Assembly (NCBI RefSeq): GCF_947077765.1
Contig: NZ_CAMTTF010000002.1
Coordinates: forward strand, 62,001 to 126,000
Reading direction: 5' to 3'
DNA: 64,000 nt
Source of the DNA: Salinibacter grassmerensis
Lineage (GTDB): Bacteria > Bacteroidota > Rhodothermia > Rhodothermales > Salinibacteraceae
Shown: positions 60,614 through 64,000 of the stretch, piece by piece
Layout: the number at the start of each line of letters is the position of its first letter
Position numbering within the stretch: position 1 is the first letter of the stretch
Notes under the pieces: generated by a model
What the model was told of the DNA's origin: nothing
The model's database searches: none
Seen by the model: the letters and a program-made list of their open reading frames with translations, nothing else
Made by a program: the position numbers and the translations under genes

Positions 60614-60856
60614 AGGGTTACGTATCGAAGGGATTTGGTAGAAAGCGACATCTCCAAACTTCTGTTTTCCGGGGATGTGGTACAAGCAAATATTTTCTGA
60701 AGACCATTCCTTGTCCGAATCGGTCGAACCGCAGGCTGTGGGAGTGGACACAGGCGTTTCTGTTTGGAAGGGCACCAGGGCGAATAGGAGGAACGCCCGT
60801 CCATGCGCGACGGTTTTATCTCTCTACAGTATTCTCTTCTACTCATCGTCTACACC

Positions 60857-62008
60857 ATGAGCAAAAAGGGACGTGTGCTCGTCGCCATGAGCGGCGGTGT
60901 CGACTCCTCGGTGACGGCCGTGCTGCTCAAGGAACGCGGCTACGACGTAGTGGGCCTCACCATGAAAACCTGGGACTACTCCACCAGCGGGGGGCGCGAC
61001 GGGAAAGAGGTGGGCTGTTGCTCCATCGAGTCGATGAACGACGCCCGCGTGGTGGCGACCAAGCACGGCTTTCCGCACTTCGTAGTGGACCTTCGAGAGG
61101 AGTTCGGGGACTGGGTGATTGAGCGCTTCACCGACGAGTACCTCTCGGGCCGCACGCCCAACCCCTGTGTGCTCTGCAACACCCACATCAAGTGGGATGC
61201 CCTGCTACAGCGGGCCGACGACCTGGACTGCGAGTACATCGCCACGGGGCACTATGCCAACGTGCGCTACGATGACGAGCGGGATCGACACCTCTTGAGC
61301 CGTGGGCTCGACCGCAACAAGGACCAGAGCTACGCGCTCTGGGGCCTGCCGCAGGAGCACCTCGCCCGGTCGATCTTCCCGCTCGGCGCCTACGAGAAGC
61401 CGGAGATTCGTGAGATGGCGGCGGAATTCGGCCTCGACAATGTGGCCGACAAGCCCGACTCCTACGAGATCTGCTTCATTCCGGACAACGATTACCCCCG
61501 CTTCCTGAAGGACCGTGTCGACGGGCTCGAGGACGAGGTGAGCGGCGGCAAGTTTGTGCTCAGCGACGGCACCGTAGTGGGCACGCACGACGGCTATCCC
61601 TTCTACACCATCGGCCAGCGTCGGGGGCTCGACCTTGCGCTCGGCGAGCGCGTCTACGTGACCGACATTGATCCCGAGACGAATACGATTACGGTGGGGC
61701 CGAAGGAGGAACTCATGGAGCAAACCCTGACGGCCCACGAGATCAACCTCGTAAAGTATCCCGAGTTTGAAGGAGAGCGCCCGGCCTGGGGCACCATCCG
61801 CTACAACGACGACGGGGCGGGATGCCTCGCCTGGCAGCCAGACGAGGATACCTTGAAGGTGGCCTTTGCCGAGCCGAAGCGCGCCATTACGCCGGGACAG
61901 AGCCTCGTGCTATACGAGGAAGACGACGTGCTCGGTGGGGGGTGGATTCGCGAGGTAGGCAGTGCCGAGGCCGAGACGGCGGAGCAGGCGGCCGAGGCGC
62001 CCGCGTGA
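60857..62008 (+). CDS. mnmA: tRNA-specific 2-thiouridylase MnmA
   Basis: The 383-residue product starts at the ATG at 60857. The ATP-binding loop (AMSGGVDSSVTAVLL), the nucleophile Cys in TPNPCVLCNTHIKW and the second catalytic Cys in DSYEICFIPD are present, with the TIGQRRGLDLALGERVYV segment typical of MnmA. It adds sulfur to U34 of tRNA for Lys, Glu and Gln. A short Glu/Ala-rich tail is extra. The frame upstream of the ATG is open but non-conserved. Confidence 0.95.
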   Translation: MSKKGRVLVAMSGGVDSSVTAVLLKERGYDVVGLTMKTWDYSTSGGRDGKEVGCCSIESMNDARVVATKHGFPHFVVDLREEFGDWVIERFTDEYLSGRTPNPCVLCNTHIKWDALLQRADDLDCEYIATGHYANVRYDDERDRHLLSRGLDRNKDQSYALWGLPQEHLARSIFPLGAYEKPEIREMAAEFGLDNVADKPDSYEICFIPDNDYPRFLKDRVDGLEDEVSGGKFVLSDGTVVGTHDGYPFYTIGQRRGLDLALGERVYVTDIDPETNTITVGPKEELMEQTLTAHEINLVKYPEFEGERPAWGTIRYNDDGAGCLAWQPDEDTLKVAFAEPKRAITPGQSLVLYEEDDVLGGGWIREVGSAEAETAEQAAEAPA

Positions 62009-62232: not shown

Positions 62233-63663
62233 ATGGAACGCACGGACCTGACGCGGATCGACGAGTTCACATGGGAAATTCCCCAGTCGTTCCAGGACGC
62301 AATGCGGGTGCCCGTGCGCATCCTCGCGAGTGAGAATCTCATCGACGAGATTCTCGAGCGAAAGGCCATTGATCAGGCCATTCGCACCTCGATGCTATCC
62401 GGGCTGGTGGGACACCTCGTGGTGATGCCCGATGTCTACAGTGGGCAGGGGGCACCGGTGGGCATCGTGGCCGTGTCGAAGTGGCCGGTGGGCACCATTG
62501 CGCCCGGTGCCATCGGGCACGACATCAACGCGGGCGTCCGGCTGCTGGGGTCGGACATCAAGGCGGAGGAGGCGGAGGGCAACTTCGACGCCCTCGCTGA
62601 CGCCCTGAAGGATCACATCCCGAGCGGGACGGACGCAGAAGGGTCCATCTCACTCAACAAGAGCGAGGTCGACCACGTTGCCCAGTCTGGTGCCCAGTGG
62701 GCCCTGCGCAAAGACATGGCGCAGCAGGATGACCTCGTCCGCGCCGAGGAGGGGGGGCGCCTCAACGAGGCGGACCCGAAGAAGGTGAGTGAGGCGGCCC
62801 GGTCGATCGGAGCGCAGCAGCTTGGGACGCTCGGGGGCGGGGAGCACTTCATCGAGATTCACTCCGTGGAGGAGGTCTTCAACCGCGCGGCGGCCGTCAC
62901 AATGGGACTCAAGGAGGGCACCCTTGTCGCCCAAATTCACTGCGGCTCCCGTGGGTACGGACGTCAGGTCTGTGCCGACTACATCGAGCGGTTCCAGGAG
63001 GTGGCGCCGTCGTACGACGTCGATCCGCCGGACCCGAATTTGGCGTCGGTGCCGCTCGACTCAGGGGAGGCCGAAGACTACATGGGGGCGATGCGGGCCG
63101 CGGCCAACTACGCCTACGCCAACCGCCAGGTGCTGGCCCACCGCGTCCGTGAGGTGTTCGACGACCTGCTTGACGGATCCGGTCAGCGGCTCAAGACGGT
63201 CTACGACGTGGCCCACAACCTAGGGCAGGTGGAGATGCATCAGGTCGACGGCAAGCACATGCGCTGCTACGTCCACCGCAAGGGGGCGGCGCGCGCCTTC
63301 GGCCCCGGCACGCCAGGCATCTCGCTTCCGTACCGCGCCCTGGGACAGCCGGTGCTGGTCCCTGGAAGCATGGGCGAGACCTCGTGGGTCATGCTGGCCA
63401 CCCGCGACGCCATGCAGAAGAGCTTCGGGTCGGCCTGCCACGGCGCCGGACGGACCATGAGCCGCCACGAGGCAAACCACCAGGCCGAGCCGGTGCCGCT
63501 CGAGGGGGACGGAGATGGCGTCGCCGTCCGGTCCGGCGACGGATCAGCGTCCGCCGGCGTCCAGCTCAAGGAAAACATCGGCGGAGTCGTGGAGACGGTA
63601 GCCGGGTCGCGACTCGCCGGCAAGGTGGCGCGACTGGAGCCCCTCGCCGTCATGCACGGATAA
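62233..63663 (+). CDS. rtcB: RtcB-family RNA ligase-like protein with altered metal site
   Basis: The 476-residue product has the full RtcB scaffold: MPDVYSGQGAPVGIVA, GHDINAGVRLL, LGTLGGGEHFIEIH, IHCGSRGYG, VYDVAHNLG and the guanylylation-site His403 in ACHGAGRTMSR. RtcB enzymes join 2',3'-cyclic phosphate and 5'-OH RNA ends using Mn and GTP. Here the bridging metal ligand Cys of the DINCGVR motif is Ala100, the Asn before the conserved His is Glu204, and the first His of MPDVH is Tyr69; His205, His236 and His328 are kept. Activity may be altered. The gene stands alone. Confidence 0.9.
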   Translation: MERTDLTRIDEFTWEIPQSFQDAMRVPVRILASENLIDEILERKAIDQAIRTSMLSGLVGHLVVMPDVYSGQGAPVGIVAVSKWPVGTIAPGAIGHDINAGVRLLGSDIKAEEAEGNFDALADALKDHIPSGTDAEGSISLNKSEVDHVAQSGAQWALRKDMAQQDDLVRAEEGGRLNEADPKKVSEAARSIGAQQLGTLGGGEHFIEIHSVEEVFNRAAAVTMGLKEGTLVAQIHCGSRGYGRQVCADYIERFQEVAPSYDVDPPDPNLASVPLDSGEAEDYMGAMRAAANYAYANRQVLAHRVREVFDDLLDGSGQRLKTVYDVAHNLGQVEMHQVDGKHMRCYVHRKGAARAFGPGTPGISLPYRALGQPVLVPGSMGETSWVMLATRDAMQKSFGSACHGAGRTMSRHEANHQAEPVPLEGDGDGVAVRSGDGSASAGVQLKENIGGVVETVAGSRLAGKVARLEPLAVMHG

Positions 63664-63903: not shown

Positions 63904-64000
63904 ATGTCTGACTCCGACCCTGAAGGCCCATCCCTCCTCGTCGTCGAGGATGACAGCGAGCTTAGCACGAGTCTTCTGCTCTACCTAGAATCCGAGGGCT
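63904..64000 (+). CDS. Response regulator, N-terminal part only (cut by window edge)
   Basis: The frame from the ATG at 63904 runs to the window end and gives 32 residues. After an acidic leader, SLLVVEDDSELSTSLLLYLE matches the start of a receiver domain, with the acidic pair that binds magnesium in VVEDD. The output domain lies outside the window. No kinase gene is adjacent within the window. Confidence 0.8.
   Translation, partial: MSDSDPEGPSLLVVEDDSELSTSLLLYLESEG

Follow-up and report, generated by a model that had tools for sequence, protein, structure and literature searches.

The genome of Salinibacter grassmerensis encodes a protein that, by homology and predicted fold, is a member of the RtcB family and that lacks defining active-site features of RtcB ligases. 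Its gene is located at 62233..63663 on the forward strand of the window, the stretch of 64,000 nucleotides analysed here, starts with ATG and encodes 476 amino acids. It lacks the metal-bridging cysteine, is under strong purifying selection and is kept family-wide in the Salinibacteraceae. The explanation that we regard as the best, with about even confidence on the sequence comparisons below, is that the protein is a vertically inherited Salinibacteraceae RtcB paralogue that gave up GTP/Mn-dependent ligation of 3'-P and 5'-OH ends and is kept for another function. No description of a Cys-less RtcB was found in the open-access literature, which is weak evidence of absence as subscription papers lie outside that scope.

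Among the sequences compared, Cys98, Asn202, Tyr451 and Lys480 (numbering of Pyrococcus horikoshii RtcB, 1UC2, the reference for our alignments) hardly vary from archaea to phages. A strongly selected natural clade that lacks all four and keeps the metal-binding histidines distinguishes the requirements of the fold from those of ligation. In Salinibacter-type bacteria, 'tRNA-splicing ligase RtcB' is probably a misannotation.

Active-site residues lost and kept

The protein matches PF01139 with an E-value of 1.3e-134 (450 bits) over the full model, positions 1-426 of 426, and is homologous over its full length to the RtcBs of P. horikoshii (1UC2/4DWQ) and Thermus thermophilus (2EPG), with phmmer E-values of 3e-119 and 4e-108, respectively. 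An AlphaFold2 model made from a shallow alignment (pTM 0.83) has the RtcB fold, with a TM score of 0.90 to 4DWQ. Its confidence is lowest around the active-site loop and His403; a canonical control dips there too on the same sequences, so this feature is not interpreted.

Alignment to 1UC2 places Ala100 (codon gcg, 62530..62532) at the metal-bridging Cys98, Glu204 (gag, 62842..62844) at the alpha-phosphate-binding Asn202, and Tyr69 (tac, 62437..62439) at His67 of the MPDxH motif. The equivalent of the guanylylated His404, His403 (cac, 63439..63441), is retained, as are Asp97, His205, His236 and His328, which correspond to the metal ligands Asp95, His203, His234 and His329. All of these codons are on the forward strand. 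The original prediction had identified and placed these residues correctly. It had also described the three substitutions as changes at metal-site positions, and this holds for the cysteine. The metal ligands of RtcB are an Asp, the Cys and three His, and Asn202 contacts the alpha-phosphate (PMC8668186, PMC10944509); of the three changes, the cysteine alone thus concerns a metal ligand. His67 is not given as a metal ligand in these or the other sources consulted.

The change is also much wider than three sites. When 20 Cys-less sequences were compared with 44 canonical RtcBs, the commonest residue in the Cys-less clade differed at 23 sites where the canonical set is conserved to at least 95%, so at least 23 otherwise conserved sites are affected. 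They include Cys98, Asn202, His67, Tyr70, Thr354, Arg190, Lys333, Tyr451 and Lys480, and thus the nucleotide-binding pocket. In the guanine pocket of the window protein, Tyr451 is replaced by Lys446 (63568..63570, forward strand) and the guanine-contacting Lys480 by His475 (63655..63657, forward strand). A further 71 positions are common to both sets with little or no variation, and another 40 vary elsewhere but not within the Cys-less clade.

Cys98 is present in all 44 canonical sequences. In the Cys-less orthologues the position is Ala, Thr, Ser or Val, with at least five changes among these residues on the clade tree; the orthologue of genus g9 is an exception and keeps Cys. Asp95, His203, His234, His329 and His404 show zero changes on the same tree, g9 included. 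Thus, no fixed replacement for the cysteine exists at its own site, whereas selection still acts on the remainder of the metal cradle. Glu206, Lys351, Arg355 and Ser385 are likewise retained by the whole clade including g9, and Asp67 of the window protein, the partner of the nucleophile His403, is invariant outside g9. Position 202 is Glu, Gln or Ala in the clade. Tyr69 is not universal, being His in two members (L020 and L024) and Ser in two others (L021 and L022). Cys237 is fixed in the clade, yet it is also found in canonical enzymes that keep Cys98. Glu204 or Cys237 could act as compensation and restore a two-metal site.

Some clade members in small, incomplete genomes (L024/L110 in G010 and L026/L111 in G009) carry insertions and further losses. 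In L024 the HGAGR motif reads HGSAS, and the G009 copy is divided between two reading frames.

Inheritance, selection and genome context

An orthologue is present in 24 of the 27 Salinibacteraceae genomes, and the three without a match (G007, G008 and G025) are all incomplete. With a profile of the clade, full-length Cys-less members score 860-1017 bits, and nothing outside the family exceeds 500 bits. The Cys-less set and the g9 orthologue form one branch (support 100/100), as does the Cys-less set alone (96/88); the canonical Salinibacteraceae RtcBs branch with homologues from other Rhodothermales. The branches at the base of g9 are long and were flagged by the tree program; the position of this genus therefore rests partly on synteny.

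The neighbouring genes are conserved. Upstream is an mnmA-type tRNA 2-thiouridylase gene (60803..62008, forward strand; PF03054/PF20259/PF20258), and downstream is an OmpR-type response regulator gene (PF00072 and PF00486), which starts within 63904..64000 on the forward strand and runs beyond the window. An OmpR-type response regulator lies 3' of the gene in several genera (for example L107:7904-8641). No histidine kinase directly adjoins the response regulator; the nearest one seen is about 4.4 kb downstream (L107:13071-14624).

The loss of otherwise near-universal catalytic residues could be taken as the sign of a former ligase that was recently freed from selection and is decaying. This is very improbable, and we reject it on the dN/dS values, which are 0.03-0.07 where dS is unsaturated and 0.02-0.05 in the remaining pairs, at or below those of most canonical RtcB pairs. 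The presence of the orthologue in nearly the whole family, the intact reading frames of nearly all members and the 40 clade-specific fixed positions also stand against decay. The tree, dN/dS and synteny agree with the proposal, made from the sequence at the outset, of a distinct, constrained subfamily. Chance or an assembly or sequencing error was rejected too, as orthologues in independent genomes likewise lack the cysteine.

Within the phylum, a scan with a DNA pattern for DIN[not C]GVR matched RtcB genes only in the Salinibacteraceae, in eight genomes. Two matches were found outside this family; one was read and is not an RtcB, and the other (L122) has no such reading in six frames. The same scan of Pseudomonadota was empty, as was its positive control, because the motif differs there (DISCGVR in L044). 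No relative was confirmed in viral contigs.

The original prediction had called for a check for a second, canonical rtcB. The genome of the window (G000, 99.7% complete) has none: the gene described here is its sole PF01139 gene, so the Cys-less protein is its only RtcB. Neither archease, in a PF01951 search, nor RtcA was found in this genome. A canonical RtcB is present in 12 sister genomes, always with archease, which adjoins it in most of them; archease occurs in only one of the 15 genomes without a canonical RtcB (Fisher p = 7e-7). The distribution of archease thus matches that of the canonical enzyme, not that of the Cys-less paralogue. The lone archease without a detected canonical RtcB (G001:C220:171-575) is at a contig end, and its canonical partner gene may have been lost in an assembly gap.

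Ligation and the probable function

Substitution of the cysteine by Ala abolishes ligation in the RtcBs of Escherichia coli, human and Pyrobaculum aerophilum (PMC10630183). In P. horikoshii RtcB, D65A, D95A, N202A, H203A, F204A, E206A, H404A and K480A are each inactive alone, and archease rescues only F204A, E206A and K480A among them, while N202A stays dead (PMC3973293). The window protein combines the losses of Cys, Asn202 and Lys480 in a genome without archease. Taken with the published mutants, these combined losses make canonical ligation by the window protein unlikely. Each of those mutants carries one substitution in a different protein background, and many coordinated changes could together have restored ligation.

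With such a regained activity, the protein would continue to ligate RNA through a reconstructed metal site and a different use of cofactors; for example, it might resist oxidation by lacking an active-site thiol. Thiol oxidation inactivates canonical RtcB (PMC10630183), and the Cys-less copy is the only RtcB in the near-complete genomes G000, G014, G015 and G023, where RNA repair could have passed to it. We nevertheless consider a rebuilt ligase quite unlikely, given that characterised enzymes lose ligation when the Cys or Asn202 is mutated, in N202A even with archease (PMC10630183, PMC3973293), that archease is absent from these genomes, and that sister species within the genus, like haloarchaea (L141), still have a canonical RtcB with its Cys. 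Since these same-genus copies and L141, a haloarchaeal plasmid RtcB, have the cysteine, its loss is not forced by either salt or oxygen, and halophily or oxygen as the sole cause was rejected.

The opposite possibility is a catalytically dead pseudoenzyme, the fold of which is kept as a regulatory or scaffold factor binding RNA ends or proteins. The loss of Cys98, Asn202, Tyr451, Lys480, Thr354, Arg190 and Lys333, the drift of position 98 among small residues, and the conservation of mnmA and the response regulator as neighbours are all consistent with this. A pure scaffold, however, would not need His404 and the four remaining metal ligands, which never change, g9 included, and we therefore find it rather doubtful.

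We favour instead a paralogue that gave up ligation and was kept for another function. Judging from its residues, the protein has most likely lost the ability to bind and activate GTP. An adjacent pair of Mn ions would not be held in the RtcB manner once the bridging thiolate is gone, and the three His and the Asp may then bind one metal or a looser pair. The active site would still handle an RNA phosphate end without guanylylation. As His403 never varies, nor does its partner Asp67 except in g9, handling of phosphate ends appears the most likely role, and we put the chance that the window protein handles phosphate in this manner at about one half. Candidate reactions are phosphoryl transfer to His, or the hydrolysis or opening of a 3'-phosphate or 2',3'-cyclic phosphate. 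More tentatively, the conserved Asp-His pair might carry out a metal-dependent reaction on RNA phosphate ends without nucleotide activation, which would be a second chemistry on the RtcB fold.

Comparison with known RtcBs

With the archaeal and Thermus-type RtcBs (P. horikoshii 1UC2/4DWQ and T. thermophilus 2EPG), the window protein shares the predicted fold, the metal-ligand Asp and three His, the nucleophile His, and Glu206, Lys351, Arg355 and Ser385. It differs from them in lacking the bridging Cys, the alpha-phosphate Asn, the guanine-pocket Tyr and Lys, and Arg190, Lys333 and Thr354, and its genome lacks archease.

The canonical RtcBs of sister Salinibacteraceae (L002-L009, L013 and L027) belong to the same protein family and often occur in one genome with a Cys-less copy. 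They keep DINCGVR and GSGNHF, and archease usually adjoins them. In some genomes an intein splits them at DIN|C. The canonical RtcB of G016 (L114, G016:C4:1610001-1629000) carries an intein exactly between DIN and the metal-bridging Cys, adjoining the very residue that the Cys-less paralogue has lost; similar split matches were found in G012 and G020.

The short, E. coli-type RtcBs of bacteria and those of phages share the family and the set of metal ligands and nucleophile His, and are much more distant in sequence. They keep Cys98, Asn202 and Tyr451, and also Lys480 where sampled from plasmids and phages. The 11 plasmid and phage RtcBs compared, the most divergent of which share about 22% identity with the query, all keep Cys98, Asn202, His404 and Tyr451, and Lys480 is kept in every one in which that end is present. 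Even these very distant sequences thus have Cys98, Asn202, Tyr451 and Lys480, whereas the Cys-less clade, at about 40% identity to canonical RtcB, does not. Two bacterial-type copies from low-completeness genomes of the family (L025 and L054) keep the Cys, Asn and Tyr and have Met at position 480.

The g9 orthologue (L023 and L053) is a sister branch with 45% identity and in L023 likewise has mnmA on one side and the response regulator on the other. Like the Cys-less set, it lacks Asn202, Tyr451, Lys480 and Thr354. Unlike that set, it keeps the Cys and has lost Asp65, Arg238 and the HGAGR loop. The two lineages thus differ in their losses, indicating that the features of the ligase were given up in different combinations.
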